Below, one piece after another: positions 11,380-18,055 of a stretch of 33,538 nt of DNA. The notes under the pieces were generated by a model, which saw nothing but the letters and a program-made list of their open reading frames with translations, made no database searches and had not been told where the DNA came from. The stretch covers positions 1-33,538 of the forward strand of contig JANXVU010000047.1 of NCBI GenBank assembly GCA_025351485.1, written 5' to 3'. Numbering within the stretch: position 1 is the stretch's first letter; every line of letters starts with the position of its first letter. This DNA comes from Candidatus Eiseniibacteriota bacterium. GTDB lineage: Bacteria; Eisenbacteria; RBG-16-71-46; JACRLI01. A program made the position numbers and the translations under genes.

Positions 11380-12801
11380 TTATTTCCCGTAGAACCTGCG
11401 GCCTTCGCCCCTGTCCCGGGCGCTGGCTCCGTCCCGGGGCTGCGCCTTGGGCTGGTCCGGCTGAGCCGGTGGGGCTGCCTTGGGCTCATCCCGGGGAGGC
11501 GGCTTGGGCTCCTCGCGGGGCGCCGGCCTGGGCTCGTCCCGCGGAGGGTTGCGCGGCTCCTCCCGCGGCTTGACCTCGTCGCGAACACGACCCTCGCCCT
11601 TGCGATCGGTGGGCGGATCCTCCCGGCGGCGCCGAACGATGCCGCCGTCGTCAGGCTTGGCGGGCGGCGTCTTTTCCACGGGAGGCCGGCGGTCGTAGTG
11701 CGGCGGTCCCGGGACCTCGTGGCTGCGGTCGCGGAATCTCACCGTCTCGTCGCCGCTCGGAGTCTTGCCGACCGGCGGCTTCACCGGCCGCTGGCGCACG
11801 CGGTCGCGCTCGTCCTTCGAGGGGCTCCTCGGCTTGCCCGAGCCTCCCCGGGGCGCCGTGAAGTAGCCTCCCGAGCCTCCCCCGGCCTTGGGATCTTCGC
11901 CGGGATTCTTCTTCCAGAGCACCCGCCGGTCAAAAGTGTCCTTGAACCTCACCCAACCGTCGTCGCTGCTCCAGCGCTGCTTGTACCCGTAGAAGCGCGG
12001 CGCGCAGTCCGCGCGCCGGAAGTAGTACCAATAGGGGTTGTGGTAGTAAGGGTATCCGCGGCGCCAACGCCAGTCGTAGTCCACCCGGATCTCGAACACC
12101 GAACATACGGACTGGTAGGGATCATGGTACATGTCCGCGTTCGGGCCGTGACAGTCGTTGCACAGGAAGCGCGGGTAGGCGACCTTGCGTTCCACGTAGA
12201 AACTGGTGTAGGCCGCCGCGTAGCAATCCTGTTCATCGCAATCGTAGGGAAGGATGGAGCGGTTGATGCGCTCCATTCCCAGGTACGGGTCCCCCACGAT
12301 GTGCCCGCCCTCCCGCCAGCCGGTCTCCGAATCCACGCCGTCCTGGGACGGGTCGTACTCGGGGTCCATGTAGTCCGGCAACTGCTGGAAGGGCTCCCGG
12401 CTGGCCAGGGCCTGGATGTATTCGATGCCCGGGGGCCCGTCGACGACCAGGTCGTAGCTGGACCGGGGCGCCGGCAGCACGTACTCGCGGCCACCCTCGA
12501 CCCAGTGCGGATCCAGGGGCCGGTATGGATAGAGCAGGTGGACGTTGCCCTGGGTGTCCACGTTGTAGATCACCGCGTAGCAGTCCCCCGAGGCGCGAAA
12601 GTGAACGCGGATGGGATCTCCCGTGTGATAGACCGCCCCATCACCCCGGTCGGTCCAGACATCCATGACCAGTTCCCCATCCGCGTGAATGCGGCGAACA
12701 TCCCTGTCCGGTGAGGAGGATGCCTTGACCGCGACCGCGCCCGCCGGCGCCGCGAGGAGCGCGGACAGCGCGAGTAGGAGCCACACAATCCTGGGTCGCA
12801 T
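11380..12801 (-). CDS. Secreted DUF4384-type protein with CxxCH motif and charged proline-rich tail
   Basis: The protein has 473 residues with a signal peptide (MRPRIVWLLLALSALLAAPAGAVA). Residues about 30-125 fit DUF4384 (VYHTGDPIRVHFRASGDCYAVIYNVDTQG, then LLYP and YDLVVDGPPG), a domain often fused to secreted or stress-linked proteins of unclear role. The middle is rich in Tyr, Trp and Cys and has CNDCH at 214-218, a possible c-heme attachment site, near CDEQDC at 188-193. Residues about 320-465 are Pro/Arg/Glu/Asp repeats of the PREEP/PRDEP kind and should be disordered. ATG 12825, two bases after the lipoprotein stop, is in frame, but the start at 12801 gives the clean signal peptide. 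It is the second gene behind the sigma-54 promoter. Confidence 0.8.
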   Translation of the reverse strand: MRPRIVWLLLALSALLAAPAGAVAVKASSSPDRDVRRIHADGELVMDVWTDRGDGAVYHTGDPIRVHFRASGDCYAVIYNVDTQGNVHLLYPYRPLDPHWVEGGREYVLPAPRSSYDLVVDGPPGIEYIQALASREPFQQLPDYMDPEYDPSQDGVDSETGWREGGHIVGDPYLGMERINRSILPYDCDEQDCYAAAYTSFYVERKVAYPRFLCNDCHGPNADMYHDPYQSVCSVFEIRVDYDWRWRRGYPYYHNPYWYYFRRADCAPRFYGYKQRWSSDDGWVRFKDTFDRRVLWKKNPGEDPKAGGGSGGYFTAPRGGSGKPRSPSKDERDRVRQRPVKPPVGKTPSGDETVRFRDRSHEVPGPPHYDRRPPVEKTPPAKPDDGGIVRRRREDPPTDRKGEGRVRDEVKPREEPRNPPRDEPRPAPREEPKPPPRDEPKAAPPAQPDQPKAQPRDGASARDRGEGRRFYGK

Positions 12802-12827: not shown

Positions 12828-13628
12828 TCAGCGGCTCGCCCGGGCGATTTGCGCGGGCGGGCCCACCTTGAGTTCGCGATTGCTCTTGTCCACCTGGTAG
12901 GCCCAGTCGAGCACCACCGAATCGGTCGTAACCTGCTTCACGAACACCTTCGCATAGTGGTCGTCGTCGGTCCAGATCACGTAAGTGTGCTGCGGAACGA
13001 GCTCCAGCTGGCCGCCAAAAAGCCAGCCTGCGGTCGGAGCGAAGTCGTACTGCGAGATCCCGCCCGTGGTCACCCCGGCATCCTGGATCCCGGTCTGGCC
13101 ACTGCCGGCCACCAGATAGTTGTGGCCCGGGGGCGCCAGGTAGTAGACATCCGCATGCCCCGAGTTCCGTCCCACCAGGCTGAACGTCGCGAAGTGAATA
13201 CCATTCGCGGACTCGTAGTTCCCGTGCCGGGCGGTTTCGAAGTAGGCGTTGAACACTTCCAGGTCGCGGCCTTCGGGCCGAGGCGTGTCGTGCACGTTCT
13301 CGGTCGAGAGTTCGCTTTCCCGCCCCGAGGAGCTGACCGCGGTCACGGCGTACCAGTAGGTGGAGCCGTTCTGCACGTCGGAGTCCACGTAGCTCGTGTT
13401 GCGGGTCGAAGCCAGCGGGTTGTAGGGCCCGGTGGCGCCCTTCACCGAGTAATACACTTCGTAGTGGTCCAGGTCCCTCTCGGTGTTCTCCAGCCAGTAG
13501 AGGGTGACCTTGTGGTCCCCGGTGACGCTGTAGACGCCCCGCGGAGTCGCGGGAGCACGATTGTTGTCGGAGCCGCACCCGGCCGCAAATGGCGCCAGGA
13601 GGAGCAGAGCCAGGAGTGTTGATTTCAT
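12828..13628 (-). CDS. Lipoprotein with fibronectin type III domain
   Basis: The 266-residue protein begins with a lipoprotein signal (MKSTLLALLLLAPFAAGC, acylated Cys18 by the lipobox FAAGC) and a short Ser/Asp/Asn linker. An FN3 domain follows at about 24-115 (PRGVYSVTGDHKVTLYWLENTERDLDHYEVYYS ... YVDSDVQNGSTYWYAVTAVSSSGRES). The C-terminal 145 residues are a beta-rich region that I do not recognise. It should sit in the envelope. ATG 13628 has a purine-rich GGAAGGGGG upstream; the open frame extends to 13901 but runs through the promoter region. Its sigma-54 promoter ends only 34 bases before the start. Confidence 0.85.
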   Translation of the reverse strand: MKSTLLALLLLAPFAAGCGSDNNRAPATPRGVYSVTGDHKVTLYWLENTERDLDHYEVYYSVKGATGPYNPLASTRNTSYVDSDVQNGSTYWYAVTAVSSSGRESELSTENVHDTPRPEGRDLEVFNAYFETARHGNYESANGIHFATFSLVGRNSGHADVYYLAPPGHNYLVAGSGQTGIQDAGVTTGGISQYDFAPTAGWLFGGQLELVPQHTYVIWTDDDHYAKVFVKQVTTDSVVLDWAYQVDKSNRELKVGPPAQIARASR

Positions 13629-13661: not shown

Positions 13662-13677
13662 TGCATGGCCCGTGCCA
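13662..13677 (-). promoter_or_regulatory. Sigma-54 promoter of the lipoprotein-DUF4384 operon
   Basis: On the minus strand this reads TGGCACGGGCCATGCA. It has the -24 GG and -12 GC dinucleotides exactly 10 bases apart and differs from TGGCACG-N4-TTGCA at one base (A for the first T). Transcription would begin near 13651, leaving a leader of about 23 bases with a ribosome-binding site before ATG 13628. A sigma-54 activator gene lies just upstream in the same direction. Confidence 0.75.
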
Positions 13678-13784
13678 CGGAAGGAAGCAACGCGAGGGTC
13701 CCTCCAAAGAGCCTGCGACGGAAGGGCTTGCGGCGGGAACTCCTCCCGGCCCGCGCACGCCCACAAGGGCCGGAAGGCCCCACA

Positions 13785-13795
13785 GGTGTGACACC
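13785..13795. promoter_or_regulatory. Small dyad upstream of the sigma-54 promoter
   Basis: GGTGT and ACACC flank a single G. It lies about 110-120 bases upstream of the sigma-54 -24 element, within the usual range for enhancer sites, and shares GTGTG with the longer dyad next to it. Confidence 0.3.
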
Positions 13796-13805
13796 GCGGC
13801 AGACC

Positions 13806-13825
13806 GTGTGGCAGGCGCGCCACAC
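13806..13825. promoter_or_regulatory. Putative enhancer (UAS) dyad for the sigma-54 activator
   Basis: GTGTGGC and GCCACAC are perfect seven-base arms separated by six bases. The centre is about 165 bases upstream of the predicted sigma-54 start, a normal distance for an activator that works by DNA looping. The geometry, two arms in one double turn, resembles NtrC-type sites bound by Fis-like helix-turn-helix domains. Confidence 0.5.
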
Positions 13826-13841
13826 TGAGGGACGAAAACGA

Positions 13842-13873
13842 CAAGGCCGCGGTTCGTGAGAACCGCGGCCTTG
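13842..13873 (-). terminator. Perfect 14-bp hairpin, terminator-like on the minus strand
   Basis: CAAGGCCGCGGTTC (13842-13855) and its exact complement (13860-13873) flank four bases, GTGA on the plus strand. On the minus strand the stem is followed by TCGTTTTCG, a broken T-run, and preceded by TTTTTGGG. It matches the design of the hairpin at 1172-1203. It directly follows the folded region at 13882-13968 on the minus strand and comes before the enhancer dyads. Confidence 0.5.
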
Positions 13874-13881
13874 CCCAAAAA

Positions 13882-13968
13882 GGTGGGACATCAGCCTCCA
13901 CACCGGAGGCTCAGCCTGGACATTTGCCCATTGGTGGTCTGAAGCCCGCCAATCGCTGATGTCTCACC
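13882..13968 (-). ncRNA. Possible three-way-junction RNA
   Basis: Fourteen bases at 13882-13895 pair with 13955-13968 (one G-U or A-C pair, depending on strand), closing a region that holds two further hairpins: 13893-13899 with 13905-13911 (seven pairs, ACACC loop on the plus strand) and 13930-13937 with 13946-13953 (eight pairs, one wobble). The first inner hairpin competes for the last three bases of the outer stem. On the minus strand the fold is followed at once by the terminator-like hairpin, so a short RNA ending near 13835 is plausible. I found no good promoter upstream. Strand and function are uncertain. Confidence 0.4.
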
Positions 13969-14576
13969 CGCAACAAACTCTTATCCCAAACGCCGCCTCT
14001 CGGGACGGAACACTTTCAGCCTTCACGAAGAAGGTGCGCGCTCGGTGGCAGACGTCAACGGATTCGCCGTGCGCATTTCGAACCCGCCAGCAGGCCGGGA
14101 TCCCCTATCCACGAAGCGGCCCACTCGCCCACCCTCCTCGAGATGCTTGCTGATCAGGATGCGTGGAGTCTTTGCGCGCACTTAAGACTTCAAAGAACGA
14201 TTCAAATCGAAAATCGGGAACAAACCCTCCGGGCTAGTCGGTACAGCTTTCCGGATGCGTCTTGTGGACCGGGCCTAAGCCTGATCTGGAAACCTGACAC
14301 CCGACTAGCCCAGATGGAGTTTGTTTTTGGAGGTCCCCCCCCTCCGCAATCCAAGCATCGCAACCCGCGTGCCAATGGCGCGGAATTCGGCCAGTTTCAC
14401 GTTTCACAGCGCAAGCCGCTGCAAGACAATGCGATACAAATCAGGTCCCGGACGCGCACGAATGCGTACCCCGACGACCCGGGCTGTTCAACTATGAAGA
14501 GTGTTTACAACGAGAATGAAATGAGAACAAGATTCGAGGCGGGTATTGGAATTGCGGTTGTAAAGAAAGTTAATAC
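13969..14576. other. Gene-free intergenic stretch
   Basis: Open frames exist on the plus strand, the longest at 14143-14580, but they have no ribosome-binding site, no recognisable domain and an ordinary-chance composition, so I call no gene. The stretch is less GC-rich than its surroundings, particularly beyond 14480, where the plus strand is A-rich. It includes the long inverted repeat at 14220-14324 and a run of eight C at 14335-14342. Confidence 0.5.
14220..14324. repeat. Long inverted repeat with nested pairing
   Basis: GGGCTAGTCGG (14231-14241) and its exact complement (14301-14311) enclose 59 bases, within which TTTCC (14248-14252) pairs with GGAAA (14288-14292). Outside, ACAAA (14220-14224) and TTTGT (14320-14324) continue the arms, with CTCC and GGAG pairing between them across bulges. 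It could be a structured RNA or a remnant of a small mobile repeat. I saw no second copy in the window. Confidence 0.45.
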
Positions 14577-17500
14577 CTAACTATTAAGACTCTTGACCCT
14601 CACCCGGCGGTCGAGTCCGAACATCTTGATCTTCTGGAGGAGCGAAGGGTAGGAGATACCCAGCTCGCGCGCAGCCTGGCTCTTGTTCCAGCGGGATGCT
14701 TCGAGGGCCTGGCCGATGGCCTTGCGTTCCATTTCCGCGACCTGGGCCCACAGCTTTCCACGGGCTCCGGTGGTCACCGGGGGAGCGTCCAGGTAGAACT
14801 CCTCGGGCAGAAGATCGGCCCCCAGCGGATGGCGCGGATCGGCGAGCACCACCATGCGCTTCACGACCTTTTCAATCTCGCGCACGTTTCCGCGCCACGG
14901 ATGGTCCAGGAAGTGTTGCCGGACTTCGGGCGTGAACTCCCCAACGTCCTTGGTGAACTGGGCCGCGAACTGGTGGCGGAAGAAATCCGCGAGCAACGGA
15001 ATGTCTTCGCGCCGGGTGCGCAGGGCCGGCACCTGGATCAGGATGTCGTTGAGCCGGTAGTAGAGGTCCTCCAGGAATCGGCCCGAGGCGATGCGGATCT
15101 TGAGATCGGCATTGGTGGCGCAGATCACGCGCACGTTCACCGTCTTCCAGTGGTTGGATCCCACCGCCCGGATCTCGCCGCGGTCCAGCACGTGCAGGAG
15201 CTTGCCCTGCACCGCCTCCGAGAGCCGGTCCACCTCGTCCAGGAACACCGTGCCGCCTTCCGCCTCTTCGAACAACCCAAGCTTGTCCCGGCTGGCGCCC
15301 GTGAAGGCGCCCGAGACGTGCCCGAACAGTTCGCTCTCTAGCAGAGGCTCCGGCAGCGCGGCGCAGTTGATCGGCACGAAAGCCTTGTCGCGCCGGTGAC
15401 TTCTCTGATGGATGGCCCGGGCGATCAAGCCCTTGCCGGTTCCCGTCTCGCCCTGCAGCAGGACGCTGGCGGTGGCATCGCTGACCTTGTCCACCAGGCG
15501 CAGGATGTCGAGCATCTGCGGGCTCTGGGTGACGATGCCGTCGGCGGCGCCGCTCAGCTTGAGACCTTCCTTGAGACTCCGGTTCTCCTCCCACAGCGCC
15601 TGGCGGCGCGCTTCCACGGAAGCCGCCGCGATCAGGCTGCTCAACGCCACCAGCAGGTCCAGTTCCCGCTGGCGCAGCGGGCCGGTGGCGCTCTTCAGGC
15701 CCCGGCCGAGGAACAGGATTCCATGAACCTGGTCGCCCGCGCCGAGCGGAAGGGCGGCGATCGAACCCATGCCGGACAAGAGCGACGCGGCCCTGGCCGG
15801 AAGCATCGGGTCGGAAGCGGCCCGGGTGGAGAACACCGGCCGGCCGACCATCATGCACTGCTCGGAAAGGGCCACCGCGATGTCGAGCGCCGACTCGGCC
15901 CGCAGGCCGAGATGGGCGCGGAGCAGGCAGTCGCCGCCTTCACGCTCGGCCAGGAACACCACATCGGCCGGGAAACGCTCGGCCAGGAGCTGCACCAGCG
16001 CCTCGCTCCAGTCCCGCGATCCCGCCTCGCGGAAGACCCGGTTCACGTCCTCGAGCAGGCGGAAGTCGTTGGAAGAGGACGCCGACCCCTGCAGATAGCT
16101 GACTTCCAGGCTGGAACGCAGCTCGGCGGCGCGCTCCTCGATCGAGGATCGGAAGGAGCCGCTGTAATTGAGCGCTTCCTCGAGCTCCGTCAGCGCCTGG
16201 TCCAGCCGGCCCTGCGCCAGATCCAGCCGGGCCAGCTTCAAGGTGGTGTGCGCGAGGTAGTACTCGCAATCGAAGGAGACGAACAGGGCACTGGCACGGC
16301 GAAGGTGGCGGCCGGCGCGGTCGGCCATGTGGCCGTCCCGGCGGTCTTCGTAGAGTTCCGTTTCCAGGGAACCGGCCGCGTAGAGGGCCGAGGCCAGCTC
16401 GAAGCGCTCCCCCACCTCGGTCAGTTGCTGGATCGCCTGGTCCATCAGGGCCGTGTAGCCGGAGATGTCCCCGCGGCGTCCGGCGGCCAGGGCCAGCAGC
16501 CTCCAGGAAGCGGCCTCTTCCAGCCGGTCGTGCTGGCGACGGGCCAGGTCCAGGGCGCGGCGTCCGCAGGCTTCCGCATCGGCGAGGCGGCCCTGGCGAA
16601 GGCGCAGGTCACCGAGCCGGCGCACGATTTCAAGGGTCACATCGCCCTCGGGCGCGAGCTCTTCGGCGGCCTTCAATCCGGTTTCGTAGAGCGCATCGGC
16701 CTGCTCAAGCCGGCCGCGGTCGGCCTCGACTTCGCCCAGGAACTCCAGGGACAGGATGCCGTCGCGACGGTAGCCGTGTTTTTCACACAGTTCACGGGAT
16801 TCGCGCAGGGCGGCTTCGGCGGCCTCATAGGAACGCTTGCGGCGGAGCAGGCAGGCCAGCGAGTTGAGGGCGGAGGCACGCGCCAGATAGTCCTCGGTGT
16901 CGCGCGCCATCACCATGCATCGCTCCAGGTACTCGCGGGCAATATCCCACTCGCCCAGCTTGAAGCGCACGATCCCAAGATTGAGGCAGTTCAGGGTCAC
17001 GCGGGAGTAGTTGCCGAGCCGCTCGTTGATGCGCAGCGCCCGCTCCAGGAAGCGGAGCGCCCCGGCCAGATCGCCGGAGTTCTTCGCCACCAGGCCCAGG
17101 TTGTTGTAGGCCAGTGCCGCGCCTTCCTCGCTGTCGATGCGCTTGAAGGAGGCCAGCGCCCGCTCGAAGAAGTCCCGCGCCGTGGCAAAGTCGCCCTGCC
17201 TGGCGTGGCTGACTCCCATGGCCAGTTCCAGGTGCGCCACTTCAAGGTTCTCGTTGGAATCGCGCAGGAGGCGGTAGGAGATCCCGGCGGTTTCAAGGGA
17301 GTCGCGGTAGAGGCCGCCCAGATTGAGCAGCGCGGCCTTGCGCCCCAGGACCTTGCCCAGCGGAGCGCCGGGAGTCTCGGGGGCCAGCAGCGCTTCCGCG
17401 CGCGCGACGGCTTCCAGCGCGGCCTGGTACTGGCCGTGCTGCCGGTGAGCTTCCGCCACTTTGAGGAGGATTCGGACGCGATCGGACGGCTCGGCCTGCA

Positions 17501-17663
17501 CGGGCAGACCCCGGAGCGCATTCTCGTAGTACGCGACCGCGTCACCGAAATTGGCGCCGGCGAAATGAACGTCGCCTAGCGATTCGGGCTGACCCGGCTG
17601 CTGCTGCGTACTTGCGCCCGCTTCCATGGCGGACCGGTTCTTTGGATCCCTCGATGGGGCCAT
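14577..17663 (-). CDS. Sigma-54-dependent activator with TPR sensor region, GAF, AAA+ and Fis HTH
   Basis: The protein has 1028 residues. The first half (about 30-500) is a run of tetratricopeptide repeats (A-x-x-YYENAL, ALAYNNLGLVAKNSGDLAGALRFLERALRI and others). A GAF-like domain follows (about 520-690). The sigma-54 AAA+ domain has Walker A GETGTGKG from 738, the sigma-54 contact loop GAFTGA at 785-790, Walker B TVFLDEVD, and WRGNVREIEKVVKR. A Fis-type helix-turn-helix is at about 992-1017 (NKSQAARELGISYPSLLQKIK). There is no receiver domain, so it should respond to a ligand or protein partner through the TPR/GAF half. It is cytoplasmic. The ATG at 17663 is used; 17627 is possible. The sigma-54 promoter at 13662-13677, next downstream, is its likely target. 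Confidence 0.92.
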   Translation of the reverse strand: MAPSRDPKNRSAMEAGASTQQQPGQPESLGDVHFAGANFGDAVAYYENALRGLPVQAEPSDRVRILLKVAEAHRQHGQYQAALEAVARAEALLAPETPGAPLGKVLGRKAALLNLGGLYRDSLETAGISYRLLRDSNENLEVAHLELAMGVSHARQGDFATARDFFERALASFKRIDSEEGAALAYNNLGLVAKNSGDLAGALRFLERALRINERLGNYSRVTLNCLNLGIVRFKLGEWDIAREYLERCMVMARDTEDYLARASALNSLACLLRRKRSYEAAEAALRESRELCEKHGYRRDGILSLEFLGEVEADRGRLEQADALYETGLKAAEELAPEGDVTLEIVRRLGDLRLRQGRLADAEACGRRALDLARRQHDRLEEAASWRLLALAAGRRGDISGYTALMDQAIQQLTEVGERFELASALYAAGSLETELYEDRRDGHMADRAGRHLRRASALFVSFDCEYYLAHTTLKLARLDLAQGRLDQALTELEEALNYSGSFRSSIEERAAELRSSLEVSYLQGSASSSNDFRLLEDVNRVFREAGSRDWSEALVQLLAERFPADVVFLAEREGGDCLLRAHLGLRAESALDIAVALSEQCMMVGRPVFSTRAASDPMLPARAASLLSGMGSIAALPLGAGDQVHGILFLGRGLKSATGPLRQRELDLLVALSSLIAAASVEARRQALWEENRSLKEGLKLSGAADGIVTQSPQMLDILRLVDKVSDATASVLLQGETGTGKGLIARAIHQRSHRRDKAFVPINCAALPEPLLESELFGHVSGAFTGASRDKLGLFEEAEGGTVFLDEVDRLSEAVQGKLLHVLDRGEIRAVGSNHWKTVNVRVICATNADLKIRIASGRFLEDLYYRLNDILIQVPALRTRREDIPLLADFFRHQFAAQFTKDVGEFTPEVRQHFLDHPWRGNVREIEKVVKRMVVLADPRHPLGADLLPEEFYLDAPPVTTGARGKLWAQVAEMERKAIGQALEASRWNKSQAARELGISYPSLLQKIKMFGLDRRVRVKSLNS

Positions 17664-17704: not shown

Positions 17705-18055
17705 TTACGCCGTGATTCCGAAGAGAGCCTTGGCAATGAGCCGGATGATGCCCACCGTGGTCCGCGTTCCAAGAACGTGACCGGATGGAATCCGCCCGCT
17801 CAGCGAGTTGCGATTGTCGACGCTTCCCGGTCCCGGCACCAGGGTGACGGGCGGCGGGGTCGCAGACTTGGTGTTCGGCGTGTGGTTGTACTGGTCGGAA
17901 TCTCCGAAGGGTGAAATCGGTGTCGTGCTCACCTTTCGGTCTGGCGGATAGTCAGGGTCGTTTACACCCAGACCGGCCTTTACTGCGGGGGGGGACGAAA
18001 GGCAGGCCGCCGCCAGCGCTACTGCAAAGATGAATGCAGCACGTGGGCGATGCAT
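17705..18055 (-). CDS. Small secreted protein of unknown function
   Basis: I do not recognise this 116-residue protein. It opens with a clear signal peptide (MHRPRAAFIFAVALAAACLSSPPAVKA), followed by a Pro/Ser/Thr/Asn-rich mature part without cysteines and a C-terminal hydrophobic or amphipathic stretch (VGIIRLIAKALFGI). ATG 18055 has AAAGGAG 8-14 bases upstream; an upstream in-frame ATG at 18100 would spoil the signal peptide. It lies 41 bases ahead of the sigma-54 activator on the same strand and behind a strong promoter, so the two probably share a transcript. The pairing of a small exported protein and a TPR regulator hints at feedback, but nothing in the sequence proves it. Confidence 0.65.
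   Translation of the reverse strand: MHRPRAAFIFAVALAAACLSSPPAVKAGLGVNDPDYPPDRKVSTTPISPFGDSDQYNHTPNTKSATPPPVTLVPGPGSVDNRNSLSGRIPSGHVLGTRTTVGIIRLIAKALFGITA

Follow-up and report, generated by a model that had tools for sequence, protein, structure and literature searches.

The window (the whole stretch of 33,538 nucleotides that was analysed) comes from a 3.44-Mb draft genome that is 98.6% complete and whose class has its named matches in Candidatus Eisenbacteria. The genome contains rpoN and about 21 sigma-54 activators. On the minus strand of the window lie genes for a small secreted protein, a sigma-54 activator, an FN3-like lipoprotein and a DUF4384 protein, with a set of predicted regulatory features between the activator and the lipoprotein. 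In the direction of transcription these are:

17705-18055, minus strand: small secreted protein of 116 aa, directly upstream of the activator, with a signal-peptide-like N-terminus and an NDPD motif
14577-17663, minus strand: TPR-GAF-AAA+(sigma-54)-Fis activator of 1028 aa (from translation and Pfam), GAFTGA and Walker motifs intact
14492-14600, minus strand: UAS1, AT-rich palindrome-like sites (14600-14581, 14576-14557 and 14511-14492), proposed activator sites at P1
14359-14374, minus strand: P1, predicted sigma-54 promoter of the RNA (TGGCACGCGGGTTGCG), one mismatch, GG/GC intact
13840-14348, minus strand: predicted non-coding RNA of about 0.5 kb, putative start about 12 nt past the GC of P1
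14329-14345, minus strand: RNA module A, 5′ hairpin GGAGG-G(n)A-CCUCC, invariant in the 38 loci with the motif
14225-14317, minus strand: RNA module B, long stem CUGGGCUAGUCGG...CCGACUAGCCCGG (inverted repeat I1), fold z-score -3.9, covariation in relatives
13877-13966, minus strand: RNA module C, stem at the 3′ end whose inner motif reads UGGGGGAUGUCCAGGCU in relatives and GGGCAAAUGUCC in the window
13840-13875, minus strand: predicted intrinsic terminator separating the RNA from P2 and the dyad, 16-pair stem with a T-rich tail, combined fold z-score -6.0
13806-13825, minus strand: UAS2, perfect 7+7 dyad GTGTGGC-N6-GCCACAC upstream of P2, recovered de novo
13785-13795, minus strand: smaller 5+5 dyad GGTGT-G-ACACC
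13662-13677, minus strand: P2, predicted sigma-54 promoter of the FN3 operon (TGGCACGGGCCATGCA), GG/GC spaced correctly, one mismatch to TGGCACGN4TTGCW
12828-13628, minus strand: FN3-like lipoprotein, lipobox AAGC, fn3 match below Pfam's cut-off
11380-12801, minus strand: secreted DUF4384 protein with CxxCH (PF14326, E = 8e-19; synteny)

A first-pass annotation had named the gene at 14577-17663 as a TPR-GAF sigma-54 activator, and Pfam matches to TPR, GAF, AAA+ and Fis HTH domains bore this out. The AAA+ domain with its GAFTGA motif and the Fis-type HTH are those of NtrC-family enhancer-binding proteins. Pfam detected only TPR and GAF in the N-terminal part and no receiver domain, setting the protein apart from response regulators, in agreement with the earlier proposal that a TPR-based sensor takes the place of a phosphorylation switch. 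The FN3-like lipoprotein and the DUF4384 protein had likewise been identified correctly. Activator homologues at E<=1e-150 were found in 39 of 59 related genomes. For eight activators of the host genome, including the TPR-GAF protein, a sigma-54 site lies no more than about 270 bp downstream; activator genes that directly precede their own sigma-54 targets are a common layout there. At two loci (L154, G000:C27 and L163, G000:C63) the activator is followed some 50-270 bp on by a sigma-54 promoter that precedes a type IV pilin or a flagellar FlgB-like gene.

A short ORF of the small-secreted-protein kind was present just upstream of the activator in all 31 loci inspected, compared with 24/620 shuffled and 1/31 reverse-complemented controls, which are biased because the motif was taken from the same set as was tested. 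These ORFs share a signal-peptide-like N-terminus and a G(E/D)PD or GDGDG-like motif, and their C-terminus is usually aromatic, basic or hydrophobic. The protein is fast-evolving and had no match in Pfam or NCBIfam. Its position beside the activator hints at possible peptide sensing by the TPR domain; in a sequence search of the PDB, the TPR part matched generic TPR proteins, kinesin light chain and LGN, and no RRNPP receptors.

Homologues of the FN3 lipoprotein were detected in 47/59 related genomes. In about 30 divergent genomes the activator and FN3 genes are adjacent on one strand, usually followed by the DUF4384 gene, with local protein identities of roughly 35-60% between genomes. This adjacency is widely conserved and compatible with shared control. 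The intergenic gap in these genomes measures about 630-1400 bp, and its retention despite such divergence led us to suspect a hidden element. In one genome outside the class (G049, L187), a homologue of the FN3 lipoprotein is preceded at about 150 bp by a sigma-54-like promoter; no TPR-GAF activator was found within the 10 kb examined around it.

Predicted sigma-54 promoters and enhancer-like sites

Both P1 and P2 have the GG and GC dinucleotides at the fixed spacing of the TGGCAC-N5-TTGC consensus, and P1 is the better sigma-54 match of the two. The promoter that the first-pass annotation had placed at 13677-13662 was correct in its coordinates, in its GG/GC spacing and in its single mismatch. 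The window by itself nevertheless provided weak evidence for it: sites with up to three mismatches numbered 33 in the window versus 53 in shuffled sequence, showing no excess, and genome-wide sites with zero or one mismatch numbered 24 versus 16 for a reversed-pattern control. The significance of the P2 element therefore comes from comparison between genomes. Across 41 oriented intergenic regions, strict GG/GC elements numbered 65 on the strand of the genes and 2 on the opposite strand, and they clustered at two positions, P1 after the activator and P2 before FN3.

P2 recurs before the FN3 gene in 32 loci of divergent Eisenbacteria. P1 lies 202 bp past the activator stop codon in the window and typically 200-290 bp past it in relatives; its GG/GC is intact in 37/38 loci, and its distance to the 5′ hairpin of the predicted RNA is a constant 28-30 bp in all 38 loci with the motif, while a comparable test on shuffled upstream sequence was passed in 23 of 7000 cases. 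Comparison thus bears out both the predicted promoter P1 and its spacing. The first-pass annotation had proposed a scan of related genomes for the activator beside the same promoter and dyad, and the outcome was divided: P2 and the dyad are conserved and the activator-FN3-DUF4384 order holds in about 30 genomes, but neither P2 nor the dyad was recognisable in families f6, f10 and f11, which keep the activator, P1, the RNA and FN3. As a side observation, the only perfect match to TGGCACGN4TTGCW in the host genome lies at C135:14143, about 140 bp after csrA; in the stretch G000:C135:11000-17000 (L171), this csrA belongs to a flagellar cluster that also includes FlgK/FlgL-like genes and a FliW-like gene.

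Enhancer motifs were sought by de novo palindrome searches upstream of P2 and, separately, upstream of P1. The P2 search returned GTGTGGCg....cGcCACAC with a log-likelihood ratio of 144 compared with 36 for shuffled sequence; 28 of the 32 P2 loci score above 7, and the window dyad, which occurs as a perfect 7+7 repeat once in the host genome, is the best example. The dyad reported earlier at 13806-13825 was thereby recovered independently, whereas the 5+5 dyad at 13785-13795, although present in the sequence, did not emerge as a conserved motif. Upstream of P1 (35 loci) the search yielded an AT-rich palindrome, approximately TATAAA-n-TTTATA, often in two or three copies. The P2 dyad motif was found upstream of P1 in none of 30 loci. 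Matches to the P1 motif numbered 67 upstream of P1, 1 between the promoters (9.4 kb) and 1 upstream of P2, counted with a matrix that had been trained on the region of enrichment. For this reason a class-wide search for the AT-rich pattern together with a sigma-54 site is the better control, and it gave ten matches, all at the activator/RNA locus, and zero with the reversed pattern.

The equivalent class-wide search for the dyad with P2 gave few matches outside the FN3 locus, perhaps by chance. A wider dyad regulon in the host genome was considered and rejected, since copies with one or two mismatches were no commoner than in a reversed control; among the host-genome copies, only the window dyad is accompanied by a good sigma-54 site at an appropriate distance. 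To judge from this comparison of motifs, UAS1 and UAS2 are two unrelated classes of putative enhancer. Judged by position and motif only, UAS1 would belong to the activator, and UAS2 probably serves another sigma-54 activator. A single activator could bind both classes, or the AT-rich repeats could be sites of a nucleoid protein.

A predicted structured RNA

Between the two promoters lie features that were absent from the first-pass annotation, namely the sigma-54 element at 14374-14359, the terminator at 13875-13840 and a structured RNA between them. Because sigma-54 transcripts start about 12 nt past the GC, an RNA from P1 would open with the GGAGG-G(n)A-CCUCC hairpin. Modules A, B and then C follow in this order in the window and in several other families, and the predicted length is about 0.14-0.45 kb in most relatives. 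In the short form of family f5, module B runs directly into GGGGCUCA-T(n). Two loci of family f8 (L106 and L111) contain a diverged RNA with a GGAGCGUGGGGCUUCC 5′ hairpin and a different 3′ stem, and lack the standard 5′ hairpin.

The predicted fold is supported by comparison. In module C, 15 of 19 pairs showed two-sided changes, compared with 6.7 in shuffles (0/500), and sliding the partner strand abolished pairing. For the short form, 9/38 pairs had two-sided changes versus 3.6 in shuffles (0/500). A covariance model of module C (R1) scored 51.7 bits in the window, whose sequence was in the training set; in 24 of 47 class genomes it returned a single strong match, placed at this locus, and it gave E-values of 8e-6 to 8e-4 on four loci outside the training set (L105, L110, L117 and L122). 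The inner motif of module C reads GGGCAAAUG in the window and GGGGGAUG in relatives, and this deviation indicates that the motif is not indispensable. Rfam 15 at the gathering threshold detected no family in the window or in 20 relatives; at relaxed thresholds, weak miRNA matches below threshold reflected the long hairpin and were discarded. A coding explanation of the region was also rejected, as ORFs on that strand reach at most 52 aa and the stems covary instead.

A pattern combining P1 and the hairpin was searched in 84,980 species and matched 29 contigs, of which 27 are named Eisenbacteria. One match labelled Latescibacterota has the same sequence as class member G041, and the match at L125 (TGGCAGTCGTCGTGCT) was judged to be probably chance. 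The activator lies 195-300 bp upstream of the pattern in 26/29 contigs; apart from L125, the contigs in which none was seen upstream (L133 and L139) are known loci where the examined stretch ends too soon. The RNA appears confined to Eisenbacteria in this search.

Comparison also ties the predicted RNA to the activator. The activator keeps P1 and the RNA in G021, where there is no clear FN3 homologue; in G027, whose FN3 operon has a P2 and dyad of its own and sits about 14 kb off; and in G037, where no FN3 gene follows before the contig ends 1.6 kb on. Together with the families that lack P2, these genomes indicate that the RNA goes with the activator while P2 and FN3 are separable. Since the RNA stays with the activator and survives without P2, it is the likeliest direct output of the activator, rather than the dyad favoured in the first-pass annotation, and by position P1 would be the likeliest cognate promoter.

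The GGA-containing loops (GGGGGA and ACACUGGGGGAUGU) raise the possibility that the RNA titrates CsrA by mimicking its consensus. CsrA was found in 34/47 genomes, the inner motif ACACUGGGGGAUGU is similar to the RUACARGGAUGU consensus of CsrA (PMC7652899), and all three f8 genomes lack detectable CsrA while both f8 RNAs that were read lack GGA loops. However, there are just two conserved GGA loops, GGA is only mildly enriched in the RNA, module C of the window lacks the GGA although csrA is present in the genome, some CsrA-negative draft genomes keep the loops, and csrA adjoins fliW, an alternative CsrA antagonist. We therefore regard CsrA titration as a doubtful special case; the two G-rich GGA loops, like the small secreted protein upstream, are leads only. 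CrcZ titrates Hfq/Crc through repeated A-rich motifs, and a CrcZ-like Hfq decoy was rejected here, as the RNAs hold no motif array and 0-1 copies of AANAANAA each rather than several.

Control of the locus and comparison with known systems

The arrangement is best described as two tandem sigma-54 switches (probability about 0.75), one consisting of the activator, UAS1, P1 and the RNA, and the other of P2 with the FN3 and DUF4384 genes and a different enhancer, UAS2. The TPR-GAF activator would bind the AT-rich palindromes of UAS1 just past its own stop codon and remodel sigma-54 polymerase at P1 (14374-14359). P1 would then transcribe a non-coding RNA of about 0.5 kb, comprising the GGAGG-G(n)A-CCUCC hairpin, one or two further stems and the terminator, which presumably acts in trans as a regulator. 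P2 (13677-13662) would drive the FN3 lipoprotein and DUF4384 protein from UAS2, most likely bound by another sigma-54 activator.

The first-pass annotation had described a self-contained unit in which the activator switches on P2 by binding the dyad at 13806-13825, with FN3 and DUF4384 as its main targets; P1 and the RNA would then be secondary or co-controlled. Conservation of the dyad and P2, and an activator-FN3 order kept in most loci, are consistent with this scheme. However, P1 intervenes between the activator and the dyad, the sites on the activator side are AT-rich, and the dyad motif never occurs at P1 (0/30 loci), observations that argue against the dyad as the enhancer of this activator. 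FN3 as its direct target is disfavoured by G021, G027 and G037, which keep P1 and the RNA without an adjacent FN3 and P2 (in G027 the dyad stays with the separated FN3 operon), by the lack of a recognisable P2 in f6, f10 and f11, and by the G049 homologue with its sigma-54-like promoter and no such activator nearby. Dyad-mediated control of P2 by this activator thus appears unlikely, though it deserves serious consideration, and two sigma-54 switches side by side describe the locus better than one unit. Alternatively, the P1 transcript could be the long, structured leader of the FN3 genes, with riboswitch-like control of read-through and no free RNA, as might be expected from an RNA that shares the strand of the operon, immediately precedes it and finishes in terminator-like hairpins. 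This is improbable, as FN3 has its own P2 past the terminator, G021 has the RNA without a clear FN3 homologue, and the G027 FN3 gene is about 14 kb away; moreover, no antiterminator alternative was noticed, albeit without a systematic search.

An extension of the two-switch reading is that the secreted protein, after export and processing, is sensed by means of the TPR domain, whereupon the activator would fire P1 to produce a new class of structured regulatory RNA. We hold this extension only tentatively and consider it on balance unlikely. The secreted-protein gene beside a TPR sensor does make a peptide-signalling hypothesis testable and, if it is true, Eisenbacteria would combine RRNPP-like logic with sigma-54 and an RNA output. 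Known RRNPP receptors carry an N-terminal HTH or a Rap-type effector domain, whereas the effector here is a sigma-54 AAA+/Fis module in an unrelated phylum. In RRNPP systems of Firmicutes (PMC10075063), an intracellular TPR receptor is encoded beside a small exported propeptide gene, and the locus shares a TPR protein with an adjacent small protein that looks exported, as judged by its signal-peptide-like N-terminus only; at about 80-135 aa the small protein is unlike those of RRNPP systems, and the likeness is a resemblance only.

Almost all knowledge of Eisenbacteria comes from metagenomes, and the literature that was searched contained no paper naming both Eisenbacteria and small RNA. The locus provides this group with a candidate family of structured RNA that Rfam does not contain and whose promoter, enhancer and terminator are defined by comparing many divergent genomes. 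Csr/Rsm sponge RNAs likewise present GGA in conserved loops, but they have many such loops rather than two, and the RNA here differs further in its sigma-54 control and in a CsrA that is linked to FliW. Qrr RNAs are Hfq-dependent, base-pairing RNAs of about 100 nt, and LuxO has a receiver domain. In Vibrio quorum sensing, the LuxO-Qrr system also couples an NtrC-family activator to a sigma-54-dependent small RNA; the activator here has no receiver and the predicted RNA is longer in the window (about 0.5 kb).

The closest likeness is with CbrB-CrcZ of Pseudomonas, in which a regulatory RNA, itself dependent on sigma-54, is encoded as a separate gene immediately behind that of a sigma-54 activator (PMC8871633, PMC6296734); here too, the predicted sigma-54 promoter of the RNA comes straight after the activator gene. 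CbrB belongs to the two-component response regulators, whereas the present activator combines TPR and GAF domains without a receiver; the sensor architecture, the sequence and fold of the RNA (neither of which is in Rfam) and the phylum all differ. The best reading of the locus by this analogy is a CbrB/CrcZ-like activator with an adjacent sigma-54 RNA, featuring a new RNA family and a new sensor type, which would extend the design of an activator with an adjacent regulatory RNA to a TPR-GAF sensor and a different RNA fold.
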